64,000 nucleotides of DNA from Kribbella pratensis (GCF_004366075.1 NZ_SODU01000005.1:62001-126000), one strand, 5' to 3'; positions 30,605-41,760 are shown, counted from the stretch's first letter. Numbers and translations are program-made. Notes: generated by a model from the letters alone, not told the origin.

Positions 30605-31369
30605 TTACTTGGGTGGTGGCGTCAGCGATATCGAGGGTTTGTCAGGGGCCGGACCGGCCGTCGGGACGGCCTTGAACGTGTCCGGTACGCCGAGTTTGCC
30701 CCAGCGGCCCGCCGGCCAGACGATCATGATCGCCCGCCCGGTGACCTTGTCGAGCGGGACGAACGCCGCGTCGCCCTGGTTGCCGCCGTTCGCGTCGAGG
30801 TCCTGCAGGTGCACGCGGGAGTCCCCGGAGGCGGAGCGGTGGTCGCCCATCACGAAGATCCGGCCGGCCGGGACGGTGACCTGGAAGTCCATCTGGGACG
30901 GGGCGTCGCCCGGATACAGGTAGCTGGTCTCGTCGAGCGGCTGGCCGTTCACGAGCAGCCGGCCCTTCGCGTCGCAGCACGCGACCTTGTCACCGGGCAT
31001 GCCGATCAGGCGCTTGATCAGGTGACCGTGGCTGGAGTCCGGGAGCAGACCGACGATCTCGAAGAACCGGCCGATCGAGCCGCGCTTCTGGCCGCTCTCC
31101 TCGGCACCGAGCCAGCCGCCCGGGTCCTCGAACACGACCACGTCGCCGCGCTTGACGTCGGTGAGCTTCTCCACCACGACCCGGTCGCCGACCAGCAGGG
31201 TGTTCTCCATCGACTCGCTCGGGATGATGAACATCTGCCCGACGAACGCCCGCAGGATCGAGGAGACGATCAGGGCACCGACCACGATCAGCACGAACTC
31301 GCGGGCGGCCGCCGCGAAGCCCGAGCGGTGGGCAGGTTTGGCGTCCGTCTTGGTCGGTGTATCGGTCAC
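30605..31369 (-). CDS. lepB: Signal peptidase I (second of a tandem pair)
   Basis: A 254-residue type I signal peptidase anchored by one N-terminal membrane helix (FVLIVVGALIVSSILRAFV). The catalytic Ser is in IIPSESMENTL and the general-base Lys in HLIKRLIGMPGD; VMGDHRSASGDSR is box E. GTG 31369 overlaps the stop of the preceding lepB copy (GTGA). A C-terminal Pro/Ala tail is present. Two or more tandem lepB genes are common in Streptomyces-like genomes. Confidence 0.94.
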   Translation of the reverse strand: MTDTPTKTDAKPAHRSGFAAAAREFVLIVVGALIVSSILRAFVGQMFIIPSESMENTLLVGDRVVVEKLTDVKRGDVVVFEDPGGWLGAEESGQKRGSIGRFFEIVGLLPDSSHGHLIKRLIGMPGDKVACCDAKGRLLVNGQPLDETSYLYPGDAPSQMDFQVTVPAGRIFVMGDHRSASGDSRVHLQDLDANGGNQGDAAFVPLDKVTGRAIMIVWPAGRWGKLGVPDTFKAVPTAGPAPDKPSISLTPPPK

Positions 31370-32115
31370 TTCTTCAGCCCCGGCTTCTTGAAGGTTTCCG
31401 GAGGACGCAGCATCGTCATCCGGTCAGACGGCCAGATTACGCAACAGGCCCGGCCAACCACGTTCTCGACCGGCACGAATCCGCCGCCGGGGCCGCCCAT
31501 GTGGGCGCGGGAATCGGCGGACTCGGCCCGGTTGTCGCCCATCACCCACAGGTGACCGGCCGGAACCAGCACGTTGAAGGGCAGCTCGGACGGCTTGGCG
31601 TCCTTCAGGAGGTACTCCCGCTCGTCCAGCGGGATGCCGTTGACGGTGATCTGGCCCTGCTTGTTGCAGCACACCACCCGGTCGCCGCCGATGCCGATCA
31701 CCCGCTTCACCAGGTGACCCTCGCCGCTGCGCGGCAGGATGCCGACGAACTCACCGATCCGGCGCACCGTGCCCGGCTTGACCTCTTCCTCGTTCAGCCA
31801 GTTGTCCGGGTCCTTGAAGACGATGATGTCACCGCGGTCGACGTCGCGGTGCAGGTAGCTGATCTTCTCGGCGAGGATCCGGTCGTCCTTCGTCAGCGTG
31901 TCGTACATCGACTCCGACGGGACGTAGAACGCCTCCGCGACGAACAGCCGCAGGACCACCGTGATGACGAGGGCGAGCACCGTCACGGTGCTCATCTCGA
32001 CGAGCAGGCTGAGCAGCGGATTCCGCTGCTTCAGCCTGCGGTGACGTCCCTTGCTGCGACGTGCCCTCTTGGATACCGGTCGAGGGCGAGCGCGAGTCGC
32101 AGTGCTCGGCGCCAT
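31366..32115 (-). CDS. lepB: Signal peptidase I (first of a tandem pair)
   Basis: A 249-residue type I signal peptidase. A very basic N-terminus (SKRARRSKGRHRRLKQR) precedes the membrane helix VTVLALVITVVLRLFVA. Catalytic Ser is in YVPSESMYDTL, Lys in HLVKRVIGIGGDRVVCC, and box E is VMGDNRAESADSR. It cleaves signal peptides at the outer face of the membrane and would serve the many exported proteins in this window. It lies 24 bp downstream of rplS. Confidence 0.94.
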   Translation of the reverse strand: MAPSTATRARPRPVSKRARRSKGRHRRLKQRNPLLSLLVEMSTVTVLALVITVVLRLFVAEAFYVPSESMYDTLTKDDRILAEKISYLHRDVDRGDIIVFKDPDNWLNEEEVKPGTVRRIGEFVGILPRSGEGHLVKRVIGIGGDRVVCCNKQGQITVNGIPLDEREYLLKDAKPSELPFNVLVPAGHLWVMGDNRAESADSRAHMGGPGGGFVPVENVVGRACCVIWPSDRMTMLRPPETFKKPGLKK

Positions 32116-32680: not shown

Positions 32681-33880
32681 TCACTTACGGCGGCGGCGTT
32701 TGCCGAGCCGGACCAGGTCGACCTTGGGCGTCTGGGGCTCGCGGCTGAGCTCCCGGTAGCCCGCTTTCCGGTACAGGGCGAGATTCCGGTCACTCTGCGC
32801 GCCCGTGTTCAGGGTGTACGACGTGACTTCGGCGGGCGCCACCTGCTCGGCGGCACGCAGTAGGCGGGTACCGAGCCCCCGGCCCTGCCAGTCGGGGGCA
32901 ACGATGAGGCGTTCGATCTGTCCGACCGTGTCGTCCACCAGGAGCTGGACCGATCCGACGATGCGGGTGCCGGCGACAGCCTTCAGGACGGTCCCCCGCT
33001 CCAGGCGGGCGGCAGTCGCGGCAGGGTCGTCTGTCAGCGGCGGGATCGTGTAATCGTCGTACAACCGCGCCTCGGACAGGAAGGCGGCCAGCTGCAGTAC
33101 GTGGATCTCACCCGCGTCAGCAGCCGTGGCGGGCAGCAGGCGGACCCCTGAGGTGGCGTCCTCCTTCTGAGCGACCACGTCGCCCCACGCTGCCAGGAGG
33201 TCCGGCCGACGTTCCGCAGTACGCCGTACGGACTCGTCGTGGCGCCAGTCGGCGATCAGAGCGTGGTTCCCGGACAGCAGCACCTCAGGTACGTCGTACC
33301 CGCGCCAGCTCGGCGGTTTCGTGTAGACCGGGTACTCGAGCAGGCCGTCGCCCGAGTGGGACTCCTCCGCCAGCGACTCCGGGTTGCCGATCACACCGGG
33401 CAGGAGGCGCGCCACCGCCTCGACCATCACGAGTACGGCAACCTCACCGCCGTTCAGCACGTAGTCGCCGATGGACACCTCGTCGACGCGCATCCGCTCG
33501 CCGGCGTACGACGCCACGCGCGCGTCGATGCCCTCGTACCGCCCGCACGCGAACGCGAGCCAGGGCTCAGCAGCGAGCTCGTACGCGAGCTCCTGGGTGA
33601 AGGGCCGCCCGGCCGGGGTCGGCACGATCAGCCGCGGCTGCGAGGGGCTGTCGACGGGGGCGACCGCGTCCAGCGCCTGTCCCCAGGGCTCCGGCTTCAT
33701 CACCATGCCCGCTCCCCCGCCGTACGGGGTGTCGTCGACGGTCCGGTGGCGGTCGTGGGTCCACTCGCGCAGGTCGTGCAGGTGGATGTCCAGCAGACCG
33801 CTCTTGGCCGCCTTCCCGACCAGGGAGACGTCAAGGGCGGCCAGATACTCCGGAAAGATCGTGACGACGTCCAGCCGCAT
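32681..33880 (-). CDS. trmD: tRNA (guanine37-N1)-methyltransferase fused to a GNAT domain
   Basis: A 399-residue protein. Residues 1-235 are a complete Trm[66 protein letters not shown] and [21 protein letters not shown] form the SPOUT trefoil knot. It methylates N1 of G37 in tRNA to prevent frameshifting. Residues ~243-390 add a GNAT acetyltransferase ([37 protein letters not shown]). The normal TrmD length is ~240, so this is a genuine fusion in one uninterrupted frame. The stop of rimM is 1 bp upstream. Confidence 0.95.
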
Positions 33881-35481: not shown

Positions 35482-36852
35482 TCAGGGGCGCAGGTAGGCC
35501 AAGTTGGGGAGCTGCTCGACGTACGTGTCCAGGAGGCTGCGGGCGACCGTCACAGAGTCTACGAGCGGGTGGTAGGCGAAGGCCTTCACAGCGGTGGCCC
35601 GGGAGGCAGTGGTGGCGGCCTCGATCGTCGCGCGCTCGACGGCCTTCACAGCACTGACCAGACCGGCCTGGTGGTCGCTCAGTTGCGACACGGTCACCGG
35701 GAGTGCCCCGTTGGCGTCAACGGTGCAGGGGATCTCCACGACGGCGTCGTCATCGAGGTGGCGCAGTACGCCGCGGTTGCGAACGTTGAGGATCAGCGAG
35801 GCCCGCTCGTTGTGTGCGATCGCCCGCATCAGCGAGAGCGCGACCTGCTCGTACCCACCGGCCGCCATGTCCCGCTCGTCCCGCTCCCCCGCGTCGGCGA
35901 CCTCACGGCTTTCCACCATGTACGTCGACTCGCGCTCGGCCCGGGTCTTCTGCCAGAGCTCGAACGCCTGCTCGGGGTGCTGCCCAGTCTCGGCGTAGAA
36001 CGCGGACTGCTGCTCCAGGAGGAACGTGCCACGCGTCTGCCGCACCCCCTGTACGGCGGCCAGCGTCTCGCGGGCGAAGTAGTAGTAGTGCAGGTACTCG
36101 TTCGGAATGGACCCCAGCGACCGCAGCCAGTCCACACCGAACAGCCGGCCCTCCTCGAAGGAGGCCAACGCGTCAGTCGACTGCAGCAGCTCCGGCAAGC
36201 GGTCCGCTCCACCGGACCGCAGGCCCCGAAGCCAGCCGAGGTGGTTGAGACCGGCGTAGTCGTAGAACGCAGTAGACGGGTCGACGCCGAGCGCCAGCGC
36301 CGCCCGGCGACCCAGACCGGACGGGGAGTCGCAGATGCCGATCACCCGGTCGCCCAGGTACGGAATCATCGCCTCCGTCACCATGCCGGCCGGGTTGGTG
36401 AAGTTGATGGTCCACGCTTCCGGAGCGACCGCCGCGATCCGCTGGGCGATCTGTACGGCGACCGGGAGTGTCCGCAGCCCGTAGGCGATCCCGCCGGCGC
36501 CAACCGTCTCCTGCCCCAGTACGCCGAGGTCGAGGGCGACCCGTTCGTCGACGGTCCGTCCCTCGAGGCCGCCCACGCGGATCGCGGAGAAGATGAAGTC
36601 GGCACCACGCAACGCCTCGTCGAGGTCCGTGGTCGCGGTCACGACCGGCGGGTCGAGCGGGGCCGCGTCGACATCGGAGTGGCCGAGGCCTGCCGCCTGC
36701 TGACGCAGCACTGCGGCGATGGCGGACAGGCGCGACGGATCGGTGTCATAGAGAACGACGGACGTGATCCGTCCGGCTCCACGGTCGCCGAGCAACGCGT
36801 GGTACACGAGCGGAACCCGAAAGCCGCCCCCACCCAGGATCGTCAGCTTCAC
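35482..36852 (-). CDS. GH4 family glycosidase (6-phospho-beta-glucosidase type)
   Basis: A 456-residue NAD- and metal-dependent family 4 glycosidase. The dinucleotide site is KLTILGGGGFRVPLVYHALL. NFTNPAGMVTEAM, GICDSPSGLGRR (metal-binding Cys) and DYAGLNHLGWLRGL (metal-binding His) are the family blocks; IRVGGLEGRTVDERVALDLGVLGQETVGAGG is the Tyr/Asp catalytic region. GH4 cleaves glycosides by a redox elimination mechanism, usually on 6-phosphorylated substrates. GTG 36852 overlaps the deoR stop (GTGA). No PTS gene is nearby; see the adjacent kinase. Confidence 0.9.
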   Translation of the reverse strand: MKLTILGGGGFRVPLVYHALLGDRGAGRITSVVLYDTDPSRLSAIAAVLRQQAAGLGHSDVDAAPLDPPVVTATTDLDEALRGADFIFSAIRVGGLEGRTVDERVALDLGVLGQETVGAGGIAYGLRTLPVAVQIAQRIAAVAPEAWTINFTNPAGMVTEAMIPYLGDRVIGICDSPSGLGRRAALALGVDPSTAFYDYAGLNHLGWLRGLRSGGADRLPELLQSTDALASFEEGRLFGVDWLRSLGSIPNEYLHYYYFARETLAAVQGVRQTRGTFLLEQQSAFYAETGQHPEQAFELWQKTRAERESTYMVESREVADAGERDERDMAAGGYEQVALSLMRAIAHNERASLILNVRNRGVLRHLDDDAVVEIPCTVDANGALPVTVSQLSDHQAGLVSAVKAVERATIEAATTASRATAVKAFAYHPLVDSVTVARSLLDTYVEQLPNLAYLRP

Positions 36853-37601
36853 GCCAGCACCACCTCTACTCCTGCTTCGGTCAGTTGGGCACGCGTTGCC
36901 GCGTCGGAGTCGGGTTCGGTGACGACCATGGAGAGCTCTCCCGGCTCGCACACCCGGGCGACGCCGTGCCCCGGGAACTTCGTCCGATCGGCGAGCAGGA
37001 CCACCCGGTCGGCGGCGTTGATCATCGCCCGCTTGACCGGCACCTCGATCATCGTGCTGTCCATGACCCGGCCGTCCGGCCGGACCCCGCTGGTCCCCAG
37101 GAACAGCCAGTCGACGTGGATCTGCCGCAGGCTTTCCTCGGTCAGGTAGCCGACCAGCGACCGGTAGCTTCGCCGGACGAACCCGCCCAGCACGATCAGC
37201 TCGATCTGCTCGTCGTTCTGCAACTCCTCCAGTACGGCGAGGTTGCTGGTCACCACGGTCAACGAGCGGCCGTGCAGGTGCTGCGCGACCCGGAGTGCCG
37301 TCGTACCGATGTCCAGCAGCACCGACTCGCCGTCGGCGACCAGCTCGGCCGCACGCCGCGCGATGCGGTCCTTCTCCTCGGCATGGACGGCGTTGACGTC
37401 CGCGAACGGCTCGTCACCGCCGTCGACCGCGAGCGCACCGCCGTACACGCGGGTCAGACGACCCTCTGCGTGCAACTGCTCGAGGTCGCGCCGGATGGTG
37501 GCCTCGCTGACGCCGAGCTTCCCGGCCAGCACCTTGACGCCCCCGGCCCCGTCGGCCCGGAGCGCGCGGACGATCTGATCCTGACGCTGCTTCGGCAACA
37601 C
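36849..37601 (-). CDS. DeoR family transcriptional regulator
   Basis: A 250-residue DeoR repressor. The N-terminal HTH reads LAGKLGVSEATIRRDLEQLHAEGRLTRVYGGA, and the sugar-phosphate sensor domain has EKDRIARRAAELV, LLDIGTTALRVAQHL, TSNLAVLEEL and IVLGGFVRRS. DeoR proteins sense phosphorylated sugars. GTG 37601 has TACGGT 6 nt upstream and no SD. It is coupled to the GH4 gene and divergent from the kinase/ABC operon, so it probably regulates both. Confidence 0.9.
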   Translation of the reverse strand: MLPKQRQDQIVRALRADGAGGVKVLAGKLGVSEATIRRDLEQLHAEGRLTRVYGGALAVDGGDEPFADVNAVHAEEKDRIARRAAELVADGESVLLDIGTTALRVAQHLHGRSLTVVTSNLAVLEELQNDEQIELIVLGGFVRRSYRSLVGYLTEESLRQIHVDWLFLGTSGVRPDGRVMDSTMIEVPVKRAMINAADRVVLLADRTKFPGHGVARVCEPGELSMVVTEPDSDAATRAQLTEAGVEVVLA

Positions 37602-37729
37602 AGAGAGACCGTATCACGCAAACTCCGTCATTATCAGTCAAATTTGTGATCAGCTCTTGCGGATCCTGAGCAAGAGTTTCAAGATTCATGCACGAGTTTG
37701 ATCGACCCTGCAGGAGTGTGCTGAGCATG
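37602..37729. promoter_or_regulatory. Divergent promoter/operator region of the sugar locus
   Basis: The region holds TACGGT (37613-37608, minus) for deoR. It also holds an inverted repeat CTCTTGC-n9-GCAAGAG (37654-37676) and ATCAC/GTGAT half-sites near 37614 and 37646. These are candidate DeoR sites. It contains an upstream ATG (37688) whose first codons resemble the true start. Confidence 0.45.
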
Positions 37730-38713
37730 CACGAGCTGGACGTTCCCGTCCTAGATGTCGTCGTGTCCGGTCTGGTATTTGAGGACCTGGTGCTCGGCCT
37801 GCCCATGGCGCCACGTCCGGGCACCGAGGTCTGGGCCACCGAGTCGCACGAGAGCCCGGGAGGTATCGCGAACTTCGCGGTCGCGCTCGCCCGGCTCGGC
37901 CTGCGGACCGGCATGGCCGCGGCCTTCGGGGCGGACGCCGCCGGTGACCGCGTCTGGACGTACCTGAGCGCCGAGGGCATCGATCTGACACTCTCCCGAA
38001 AACTCGCCGGCTGGCAGACGCCCCTCACCGTGGCCCTTGCCTACGACAACGACAGGGCACTGGTCACCCGGGGTACCCCTCCCCTGCTGTCGGCCGACGA
38101 GCTGATCACCACGCCGCCGGCTGCTCGAGCCGTCGCCGCCCACATCGGATCCTGGCCGAACGAGTGGCTGGCGAAGGCGAAGGCGGCCGGCAGTGTGGTG
38201 TTCGCAGACGTGGGCTGGGACCCGACCGAGCAGTGGGACCCGGCAGTGCTCGACCAGCTCCAGCACTGCGACGTGTTCCTGCCGAACGCCGACGAGGCCA
38301 TGCACTACACGCGGACGGACTCACCAGAGCAGGCCATGCGCCGCTTGGCGGAGCAGGTGCCGCTGGTGGTCGTGTCCAACGGCGCTGCGGGCGCCACCGC
38401 ACTCGACGCGAGTACTGGCGAGCAGGTCGCCGTACCTGCGTATGCGGTCCCGGCGGCGGACACCACCGGGGCGGGTGATGTGTTCGCCGCCGGCTTCATC
38501 GCCGCCACGCTCTGGGACCTGCCGCTGGCGCAGCGGGTGCGGTTCGCGGCACTCACCGCCGCGCTCTCCGTCACCCGGCTGGGCGGTGCTGACGCCGCAC
38601 CGCGCTGGGCCGACCTGGTGGCCTGGCAGGCCCTGCTCGATACCGGGCATCCCGAAGACCACCACCTCCAGGCGCTGATCAGCGCACACTCATGGGCACA
38701 CTCAGGAAGGTAG
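37730..38713 (+). CDS. PfkB/ribokinase-family carbohydrate kinase
   Basis: A 327-residue sugar kinase. GGIANFAVALARLGLRTGMAAAFGADAAGD is the N-terminal PfkB block, and ADTTGAGDVFAAGFIA near residue 243 holds the anion hole and catalytic Asp. It would phosphorylate a sugar or nucleoside imported by the ABC system that follows. ATG 37730 has AGGAG upstream. The in-frame ATG 37688 (MHEFDRP versus MHELDVP) is an alternative. It ends 4 bp before the binding-protein gene. Confidence 0.87.
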   Translation, partial: HELDVPVLDVVVSGLVFEDLVLGLPMAPRPGTEVWATESHESPGGIANFAVALARLGLRTGMAAAFGADAAGDRVWTYLSAEGIDLTLSRKLAGWQTPLTVALAYDNDRALVTRGTPPLLSADELITTPPAARAVAAHIGSWPNEWLAKAKAAGSVVFADVGWDPTEQWDPAVLDQLQHCDVFLPNADEAMHYTRTDSPEQAMRRLAEQVPLVVVSNGAAGATALDASTGEQVAVPAYAVPAADTTGAGDVFAAGFIAATLWDLPLAQRVRFAALTAALSVTRLGGADAAPRWADLVAWQALLDTGHPEDHHLQALISAHSWAHSGR

Positions 38714-38717
38714 AACC

Positions 38718-40007
38718 ATGGAGCTCTCACGTCGGACATTGCTCGGGGGCTTCGCAGCCGTAGCGGGCGGGTCGCTGGTCGGCTGCTCGTCAGGAATGAA
38801 CAACACCGGGACGACGGCCAAGAAGAACACTGCCACCACGCTGACCATGTGGTGCTGGCCGGGCGGTCTCGGCAAGTCGGTGCTGGACGACACGATCGCG
38901 CACTTCCCGGACCCGAAGATCAAGTACTCCGAGATCGGCGGCGACTTCAAGCAGAAGCTGATCACCACCTTCAACGGCGGTACGTCGATCCCCGACATCA
39001 CGGGCCTGAAGGGCGAGGACATCGCGTCGCTGCTGCCCCAGGCCGAGCGGTTCGTGGACCTGAAGACCGTCGGCGCGGACTCGATCCTCGGCGACTACCT
39101 GGAGTGGAAGGTCAAGCAGGCCACCACCCTGGACGGCAAGGTCATCGGTCTGCCGATCGACGTCGGCCCGACCGCGCTGTTCTACCGCGAGGACGTCTTC
39201 GCCGCGGCCGGGCTGCCGAGCGACCCCGCGAAGGTGGCCGAGCAGCTGAAGACCTGGGACGACTTCTTCGCCGCCGGTGTCCAGTTGAAGGCGAAGAACC
39301 CGAAGGCGCTGCTGGTCTGGGACGCCACCGACCTCTACGACATGGTCGTCGGCCAGGGCACCGAGCGGTACATCTCCAAGGACAACAAGTTCATCGGCGA
39401 CCAGGACCACATCCGCAAGGCCTGGGACACCTCGGTCAAGGCGATGACGATGAAGATCGACGGCAAGACGCCGAGCGGTTCGCCGGACTGGAACGCCGGC
39501 CTCGATCAGGGCACGGTGCCCGCGCACATCGGGGCGGCCTGGGTCGCGCTCGACATCAAGTCCGCGGTGAAGAAGACCGCGGGCAAGTGGCGGCTCGCGC
39601 CGACCCCGGGCGGCGCGGCGAACTTCGGCGGCTCGTTCCTCGCGATCACCAAGAACGCCGCCGACCCGCAGAAGGCGTTCGACGTGATCAAGTACATGCT
39701 CAGCGCCGACAACGAGGCCAAGGCGTTCGCCGACGCGCAGATCTTCCCGTCGACGCCGGCGGCGTACGACAAGCCGCAGCTCAAGGCGGCCGACAAGTTC
39801 TTCGGCGGCCAGGTCCCGATCGACATCTTCGGCCCGGCCGCGAAGGCAATCCCGGTCGCGTACCAGAGCCCGTACGACGACTCGGTCGCGGCACCCTTCC
39901 ACGACGAGCTCAAGACCGTGCAGACCGGCGCCAAGACCTCGGACGCGGCATGGTCCGCCGCCGTCTCGAAGGCGAAGGCGATCGCCAAACGCCAGGGAGT
40001 GCAGTGA
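38718..40007 (+). CDS. Extracellular solute-binding protein (family 1, sugar ABC)
   Basis: A 429-residue binding lipoprotein with a Tat-type signal: RR at residues 5-6 in SRRTLLGGF and a lipobox ending LVGC (Cys23). The mature protein shows family 1 features (TMWCWPGGLGKSVLDDTI, LPIDVGPTALFYREDVFAAAGLP, GGSFLAITKNAADPQKAFDVIKYM). It would present an oligosaccharide to the permeases encoded next. Folded export by Tat is common for actinobacterial sugar-binding lipoproteins. Its stop overlaps the next GTG by 4 bp. Confidence 0.9.
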   Translation: MELSRRTLLGGFAAVAGGSLVGCSSGMNNTGTTAKKNTATTLTMWCWPGGLGKSVLDDTIAHFPDPKIKYSEIGGDFKQKLITTFNGGTSIPDITGLKGEDIASLLPQAERFVDLKTVGADSILGDYLEWKVKQATTLDGKVIGLPIDVGPTALFYREDVFAAAGLPSDPAKVAEQLKTWDDFFAAGVQLKAKNPKALLVWDATDLYDMVVGQGTERYISKDNKFIGDQDHIRKAWDTSVKAMTMKIDGKTPSGSPDWNAGLDQGTVPAHIGAAWVALDIKSAVKKTAGKWRLAPTPGGAANFGGSFLAITKNAADPQKAFDVIKYMLSADNEAKAFADAQIFPSTPAAYDKPQLKAADKFFGGQVPIDIFGPAAKAIPVAYQSPYDDSVAAPFHDELKTVQTGAKTSDAAWSAAVSKAKAIAKRQGVQ

Positions 40008-40936
40008 CGGCTACAACGATGCGGACCGCGCCGCTGACCAGATCATCGACCGGTCAGCGACGCCGGATCTGGTCGTACTGGCGGTTCTACCTGGCGCTGT
40101 CACCGTTCTACGTTCTGTTCGCGGTGTTCGGGCTGTACCCGATGCTGTCCACGATCGTGCTGGCGTTCCAGCGCTGGGACGGCCTGAGCGCCCGCAGGTT
40201 CACCGGCCTGGACAACTTCGCGTTCCTGGTGAAGGACCCGACGTTCTGGCAGTCGCTGGAGAACACCGTCGTACTGTTCCTGATGTCGACGGTGCCGACG
40301 CTGGTACTGGCGCTGTTGCTGGCGGTGATGCTGCAGTCCGCGGTCCGGTTCACCAACGTCTACCGGATCGCGTACTTCATCCCGAACGTCACGTCGCTGG
40401 TCGCGATGGCGATCTTCTTCAGCTCGATCTTCAGCACGAACTTCGGTCTGGTGAACGCCGCGCTGCGCTCCCTCGGCATCCCGCAGCAGGACTGGCTCGG
40501 GCAGCCGTGGGGGATCAAGATCGCGATCTCCACGATGATCGTGTGGCAGTGGGTCGGGTACAACACGCTGATCTACCTGGCCGGTCTGCAGGCGATCCCG
40601 AAGGACCAGTACGAGGCCGCCAAGGTGGACGGGGCGGGAGCGGTCCGGACGTTCTTCTCGATCACGCTGCCGCAGCTGCGTCCCGTCGTACTGTTCACCG
40701 TCGTCATGTCGACGATCGGCGGGCTGCAGACGTTCACCGAGCCGCAGGTGATGGTCGGCAACAGCGGTGGCACCGGGCAGAGCGGGATGACCGTGGTGCT
40801 GTTCTTCTACCGGGCCGCGTTCCTGGACAACGACTACGGGTACGCCGCCGCGATCGCGCTGAGCATCTTCGCGCTCGTGCTGTTGTTCACGGCAATCAAC
40901 TGGCGGATCTTCCGTGGACGGAGTGAGGACCGATGA
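40004..40936 (+). CDS. Sugar ABC transporter permease (MalF/UgpA-like)
   Basis: A 310-residue permease with about six membrane spans (FYLALSPFYVLFAVFGLYPML, then VVLFLMSTVPTLVLALLLAVM and others). The EAA loop is QYEAAKVDGAGAVRTFFSITLPQLRP. GTG 40004 overlaps the binding-protein stop (GTGA). No ATPase gene is in the operon; in actinobacteria a shared MsiK-type ATPase usually serves such systems. Confidence 0.9.
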   Translation: MTATTMRTAPLTRSSTGQRRRIWSYWRFYLALSPFYVLFAVFGLYPMLSTIVLAFQRWDGLSARRFTGLDNFAFLVKDPTFWQSLENTVVLFLMSTVPTLVLALLLAVMLQSAVRFTNVYRIAYFIPNVTSLVAMAIFFSSIFSTNFGLVNAALRSLGIPQQDWLGQPWGIKIAISTMIVWQWVGYNTLIYLAGLQAIPKDQYEAAKVDGAGAVRTFFSITLPQLRPVVLFTVVMSTIGGLQTFTEPQVMVGNSGGTGQSGMTVVLFFYRAAFLDNDYGYAAAIALSIFALVLLFTAINWRIFRGRSEDR

Positions 40937-41760
40937 CGCGGTACCGGCTGCGCGGGCTCGCGCTGCACGCCGCCCTCGTGCTGGCCCTGCTGGTGTTCAT
41001 GTTCCCGTTCGCGTGGACGATCATCATGGCGTCGAACACGACCGCGGACATCTATCGTTTCCCGCCGAAGTTCACGTTCGGCGGGCACTTCGGCGACAAC
41101 GTCCGGCACGTGCTGGAGAACGTCGCGTTCTTCCCGTCGATGGCGAACACCGCGACGGTGGCGATCTCGACCACGTTGCTGGTGCTGTTCTTCGACTCGC
41201 TCGCGGCGTTCACATTCGCCAAGTTCCGGTTCCCGGGGCGTAACGCGTTGTTCGTGATCCTGCTGGCGACCATGCTGCTGCCGGCGCAACTTGCCGCCGT
41301 ACCGCAGTTCCAGACGATGGCGATCCTGGGCTGGGTCGGCTCGCTGAAGGCGCTGATCATCCCGGGTGCTGCGAACGCGTTCGGCATCTTCTGGATGCGG
41401 CAGTACTTCCAGAACTCGATCCACGACGAGCTGATCGAGGCCGCGACGCTGGACGGCTGCGGCTTCTTCGGGACGTACTGGCACGTCGCGCTGCCGTCGG
41501 CGCGGCCGGCACTGGCGTTCCTCGGCATCTTCACGTTCGTCGGTTCCTGGAACGACTACATGTGGCCGCTGATCGTGCTGACCAACCCCGACCACGTGAC
41601 GCTGCAGGTCGCCCTGTCGACATTGAACCGCTCGCACGGCGTGGACTACAGCATGGTGATGACCGGAGCGTTGATGGCGATGATCCCGCTGGTGATCGTG
41701 TTCGCGATCTTCGCCCGCCAGTTCATCAAGGGCGCGACGGAAGGCGCAGTACGCGGCTGA
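40933..41760 (+). CDS. Sugar ABC transporter permease (MalG/UgpE-like)
   Basis: A 275-residue permease, partner of the previous one. LALLVFMFPFAWTIIMASN is the first span, and the EAA loop reads LIEAATLDGCGFFGTYWHVALPSARP. It overlaps the previous gene by 4 bp (ATGA). The stop abuts an 8-bp sequence complementary to the SD of the next gene. Confidence 0.9.
   Translation: MTRYRLRGLALHAALVLALLVFMFPFAWTIIMASNTTADIYRFPPKFTFGGHFGDNVRHVLENVAFFPSMANTATVAISTTLLVLFFDSLAAFTFAKFRFPGRNALFVILLATMLLPAQLAAVPQFQTMAILGWVGSLKALIIPGAANAFGIFWMRQYFQNSIHDELIEAATLDGCGFFGTYWHVALPSARPALAFLGIFTFVGSWNDYMWPLIVLTNPDHVTLQVALSTLNRSHGVDYSMVMTGALMAMIPLVIVFAIFARQFIKGATEGAVRG

Follow-up and report, generated by a model that had tools for sequence, protein, structure and literature searches.

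The csnREFGHK operon of Streptomyces serves the uptake of chitosan oligosaccharides (PMC6097792, PMC5635096, PMC6520443), and its kinase has been proposed to phosphorylate the imported GlcN oligosaccharides (PMC6520443). ABC import joined to a GH4 enzyme and a kinase is thus not new as a general plan (PMC6097792, PMC5635096). In the chb operon of Escherichia coli, the PTS ChbBCA is accompanied by ChbF, a GH4 monoacetylchitobiose-6-phosphate hydrolase, and by the deacetylase ChbG. ATP-dependent phosphorylation of glycosides by the beta-glucoside kinase BglK, followed by GH4 cleavage with BglT or GlvA, has also been described (PMC10628242), and AcbK, a kinase of the PfkB superfamily, phosphorylates the pseudo-tetrasaccharide acarbose (PMC9200736). 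Furthermore, a hypothetical N-glycan locus 2 of Cutibacterium acnes contains a GH4 protein (AEE71274), GH38, GH125, GH20, an ABC importer, a HAD phosphatase and a kinase; its authors found no beta-mannosidase candidate, gave the GH4 protein no activity and called the kinase ROK (PMC6160142).

Phospho-specific GH4 enzymes in genomes that import unphosphorylated sugars pose a puzzle as to the source of their substrate. A paired PfkB kinase and GH4 enzyme would provide a direct and testable answer. This would matter for the GH4 protein in the N-glycan locus of C. acnes as well as for a large number of Streptomyces loci. No description of such a pairing, or of its survival when the importer is exchanged, was found among the open-access papers searched.

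In this study, a sugar locus of Kribbella pratensis, a soil actinobacterium, was analyzed within a window of 64,000 nucleotides (the whole stretch of DNA under analysis, from the first letter of which positions are counted) and was compared with related loci and with the genome (8.39 Mb, 8 contigs). A preliminary description had proposed that the kinase could act before GH4 cleavage, as a substitute for the PTS, or else on a product.

Gene arrangement

The locus (35482–41760) consists of six tightly packed genes, with DeoR–GH4 divergent from PfkB–SBP–permease–permease. Sequence and Pfam matches agree with the order and strands described earlier for all six genes, and neither an ATPase nor a PTS gene lies within 35482–41760, also as described. 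The features are as follows.

36852–35482, minus strand: GH4-family glycosidase of the NAD+/Mn2+ type, 456 aa (PF02056, 2e-38; PF11975, 2e-48)
37601–36849, minus strand: DeoR-family repressor, 250 aa (PF08220; PF00455, 2e-48)
37617–37640, no strand: possible DeoR operator between the divergent genes, with CA (TG on the opposite strand) every 10 bp
37727–38713, plus strand: PfkB/ribokinase-family kinase (PF00294, 6e-35; DTTGAGD motif)
38718–40007, plus strand: SBP, lipoprotein-like, of a CUT1 ABC importer (PF13416)
40004–40936, plus strand: ABC permease 1 (PermF), MalF/UgpA type (PF00528)
40933–41760, plus strand: ABC permease 2 (PermG), MalG/UgpE type (PF00528)

On the minus strand, the GTG start of GH4 overlaps the DeoR stop (GTGA), coupling the two genes translationally; the GH4 protein begins with MKLTILGGGG, a Rossmann GGGG start. 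The plus-strand operon contains one 4-base gap and two overlaps: the GTG start of permease 1 overlaps the SBP stop, with an ATG at 40019 as a possible alternative, and the two permease genes meet in an ATGA overlap. For PfkB, the ATG at 37727 is the more likely start than that at 37688, judging by the ribosome-binding site.

Among 40 related loci, 30 have a triple TG in steps of 10–11 bp upstream of DeoR; shuffles gave 7.7 (maximum 12). The repeat is only suggestive as a candidate DeoR operator, since the pattern was picked post hoc and the loci share kinship.

Conservation of the locus

The entire locus is kept in Kribbella. The same six genes recur in Streptomyces, Kutzneria, Catenuloplanes and Planotetraspora, with identities to the window of 67–69% for GH4, 49–56% for PfkB, 44–59% for the SBP and 51–65% for the permeases. 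Because it is kept across many genera, the arrangement is far beyond chance. A record named Streptomyces sp. SID13031 (L064) groups with Kribbella at this locus (GH4 82%, same gene order, no linked GH38) and is probably misnamed.

In these four other genera, a GH38 alpha-mannosidase usually follows GH4 and a LacZ-type GH2 is frequent at the opposite end. At the Kribbella locus there is no linked GH38, GH125, GH20 or HAD, and GH2 is missing from the Kribbella loci examined; a GH38 relative in the Kribbella genome, 57% identical to the linked one, sits apart (G000:C2:1450 kb). The loss of GH38 from the Kribbella locus (L149) and the missing GH2 would fit a degraded locus in which a GH4 enzyme that is no phospho-glycosidase and a functionally separate kinase persist as co-regulated remnants. 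However, none of the six genes has lost its integrity, their identity among the Kribbella loci compared is 69–98%, and this reading is very improbable.

In Propionibacteriaceae-like genomes, which belong to the same taxonomic order, the window-type importer occurs with DeoR–GH4–GH38, a phosphodiesterase-family protein, HAD and GH125, and in some loci with GH20 as well (SBP 40–44% and permeases 50–57% identical to the window). The loci with the window-type importer fall within one supported clade of the GH4 tree (97/97).

Type of the GH4 enzyme

The solved structures closest to the GH4 protein are those of 6-phospho-beta-glucosidase (5c3m and 1s6y). When ChbF, BglT, 1s6y, GlvA and 6dux (phospho) were aligned with MelA and LplD (non-phospho), a small reference set, the window protein carried the phospho residue in 15 of the 20 columns separating the classes; it matched the opposite set in 2 of 27. 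The signature comprises R92, R99, E103, Q114, E115 and E160. R92, Q114 and E115 are present in 71 of 71 relatives, R99 and E103 are nearly invariant (70–71 of 71), and C174 and H204 would be the metal ligands, as in the family. Together with PF02056 and PF11975, this signature is in line with the earlier assignment to the phospho-glycosidase type. It supports a 6-phosphorylated substrate, although with few characterised sequences it could also reflect kinship.

Another GH4 of the same genome is of the MelA type and lacks the phospho signature; its gene comes immediately after those for a PfkB kinase and ABC permeases (L152:4585–8976, G000:C1:2934.6–2939.0 kb). This is likely a counterpart in which the kinase acts last.

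Absence of a sugar PTS and energization of the importer

The sugar-PTS EIIC families PF02378 and PF03609 gave zero matches genome-wide, and HPr and EI were represented by one protein only, an EIIA-man/HPr/EI fusion of the DhaM type. PTS-fed GH4 operons of the chb/cel type have an EIIC that is linked or elsewhere in the genome, whereas Kribbella has neither, in line with the earlier claim that no PTS is involved.

Six MalK-type ATPases are encoded in the genome, and two of them (L144 and L145) clearly have no permease alongside and are thus stand-alone MsiK-type proteins. ATPase sharing among importers is ordinary in actinobacteria. Since several MsiK-type ATPases exist elsewhere and none in the locus, the importer is likely to be energized by a shared protein of this type. 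The earlier proposal of such a protein therefore holds as far as the available candidates are concerned, while we infer its use.

Linkage of GH4 and PfkB

A second form of the locus occurs in Propionibacteriales and in some actinobacteria outside that order. It retains GH4 (45–61%), DeoR and PfkB, but the ABC importer is different, its SBP and permeases being distant kin of those in the window (permeases about 30%). In the GH4 tree the second form is positioned around the window-type clade, which fits an exchange of the importer with the kinase retained.

A PfkB gene no more than 8.5 kb from GH4 was seen in 46 of the 63 dereplicated loci, a sample biased toward the orders searched; the chance expectation is about 0.03, calculated from 18 PfkB matches in the 8.4 Mb Kribbella genome. 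GH4 and PfkB stand by themselves in L045, L046, L048, L052, L154, L181 and L190. GH4 occurs alone in many Streptomyces; orphan GH4 genes with an intact phospho signature, including L067, L072 and L086, have no kinase or recognised sugar genes nearby. An orphan PfkB, 59% identical to a second-form (GlcN-linked) kinase, lies near a lone sugar-binding protein in the K. pratensis genome (L194:9232–10299, G000:C1:2728.2 kb) and seems to have lost its GH4 partner.

Order of phosphorylation and cleavage

On the phospho-type signature and the frequent PfkB neighbour, phosphorylation by PfkB before GH4 cleavage, in place of the PTS, appears to be the best reading, with a probability of about 0.5. DeoR would control a locus for oligosaccharide uptake and breakdown. 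A short oligosaccharide would be imported unphosphorylated by the SBP and two permeases, with energy from an MsiK-type ATPase. The cytoplasmic PfkB kinase would then phosphorylate the terminal sugar at its primary hydroxyl, taking the place of the PTS, and GH4 would cleave the product by the NAD+/Mn2+ redox-elimination of its family, releasing a hexose- or hexosamine-6-phosphate for glycolysis. If GH4 requires a 6-phosphate and no PTS is available, a cytoplasmic kinase must supply it, a role for which the PfkB in the locus suggests itself. This order of steps is further supported by the survival of the pair through importer exchange and in two-gene loci, by putative glucosamine-6-phosphate deaminases (NagB and SIS type) beside the second form, and by the precedents of AcbK on acarbose and the proposed csn kinase on GlcN oligosaccharides.

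However, adjacency of GH4 and PfkB alone does not imply this order, because the L152 enzyme of the non-phospho type is also found beside PfkB. The usual substrates of PfkB kinases are monosaccharides, which weighs against an oligosaccharide kinase. The kinase of the window has PF00294, a GAGD motif and a modelled ribokinase fold, but the model fits ribokinases at large, and a fold search returned a generic ribokinase fold with no hint of the substrate. It fell under every cut-off of the NCBIfam equivalogs; its nearest solved relatives are monosaccharide kinases, and PDB entry 6wb7 (AcbK) was also among the matches. The usual substrates of the family and these monosaccharide-kinase relatives favour the customary role, in which GH4 cleaves an unphosphorylated oligosaccharide and PfkB phosphorylates the freed monosaccharide (for example a hexose, GlcN or a ketose) for glycolysis. 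Such a sequence of events is the simplest reading of L152 and also agrees with the NagB linkage, which fits GlcN phosphorylation, but the phospho-type residues of GH4 are retained almost without exception; we regard it as the less probable reading for this locus.

A separate difficulty for phosphorylation by the linked kinase is that 17 of the 71 GH4 relatives are without a PfkB neighbour in a range of 9.5 kb, and yet 16 of these 17 retain all six signature residues. An unlinked kinase might make the phosphorylated GH4 substrate, with PfkB serving another sugar of the same oligosaccharide. The intact signatures of orphan GH4 enzymes, the GH38-type loci without PfkB nearby (L171, L186 and L187) and the BadF kinase that partners another GH4 in the same genome (L148) are consistent with this arrangement, which is nevertheless unlikely given the strength of the GH4–PfkB link even where nothing else is common. 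Of the preliminary proposal, the missing sugar PTS, the phospho-type GH4 and the persistent link to PfkB stand, and phosphorylation before cleavage by the linked kinase remains the preferred reading, leaving room for a kinase that acts on released sugar.

Substrate and comparison with known systems

The enzymes linked in relatives suggest a mannose-containing oligosaccharide for the window-type importer and a GlcN/GlcNAc-containing oligosaccharide for the second form. The second form includes a secreted PIG-L/CBM9 protein (a PIG-L deacetylase) in 10 of 63 dereplicated loci, a NagB-family protein in L040, L155 and L165 and a SIS-domain protein in L041, the latter two types being candidate glucosamine-6-phosphate deaminases. 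The suggestion of plant glycosides finds no support in the linked GH38, GH125, GH20, PIG-L and NagB, which indicate mannose or aminosugar oligosaccharides; no linked enzyme points to a plant glycoside. A glycosylphosphatidylinositol or inositol-glycan, prompted by PIG-L, the phosphodiesterase and the alpha-mannosidases, is speculation. In a PDB sequence search the nearest structures to the SBP were 5ixp, 8bfy (the cellobiose-binding CebE), 6q5g and 6h0h, relatives too distant for naming a ligand.

Both csnREFGHK and the Kribbella locus have an ATPase-less ABC importer, GH4 and a kinase, that of csn being a putative oligosaccharide kinase. However, the csn repressor CsnR is of the ROK rather than the DeoR family, csn-like loci (L191, L192 and L148) carry a BadF-family kinase instead of PfkB, and the csn-like GH4 enzymes (L191 and L192) branch with ChbF, apart from the window type, in a tree without S. 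coelicolor CsnH. L148, in the K. pratensis genome (L148:5687–9130, G000:C2:1797.7–1801.1 kb), encodes a second phospho-type GH4 in a ROK–GH4–BadF-kinase operon that resembles csn minus its ABC genes; the full ROK–SBP–permeases–GH4–BadF set is present in L191, from another family.

As with ChbF, ChbG and NagB, the second form joins GH4, a deacetylase and a putative glucosamine-6-phosphate deaminase, but import is by ABC without a PTS and the deacetylase is the secreted PIG-L/CBM9 protein. The BglK scheme differs in its enzymes and its kinase, which were combined in vitro from different organisms (PMC10628242).

Like N-glycan locus 2 in C. acnes, the Propionibacteriaceae loci L050, L054, L167 and L188 combine GH4 and GH38 with sugar ABC genes and a kinase; their importer is of the window type, the kinase is PfkB and the regulator DeoR. 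We infer that the Propionibacteriaceae-like loci correspond to the C. acnes locus; the GH38, GH125, GH20 and HAD genes linked there are missing from the Kribbella locus. Tentatively, PfkB acting on the terminal sugar followed by GH4 may be a widespread PTS-free route in actinobacteria, and the GH38-linked pair could provide a core-cleaving (beta-mannosidase-like) activity. If so, this pair would supply the activity absent from the C. acnes locus, a specificity new to GH4.

Other features of the window

By-eye reading of neighbouring parts of the window showed two adjacent signal-peptidase-I-like genes with an overlap of a few bases (30605–32115), and a 399 aa reading frame (32681–33880) in which TrmD runs in frame into a C-terminal stretch resembling a GNAT acetyltransferase.
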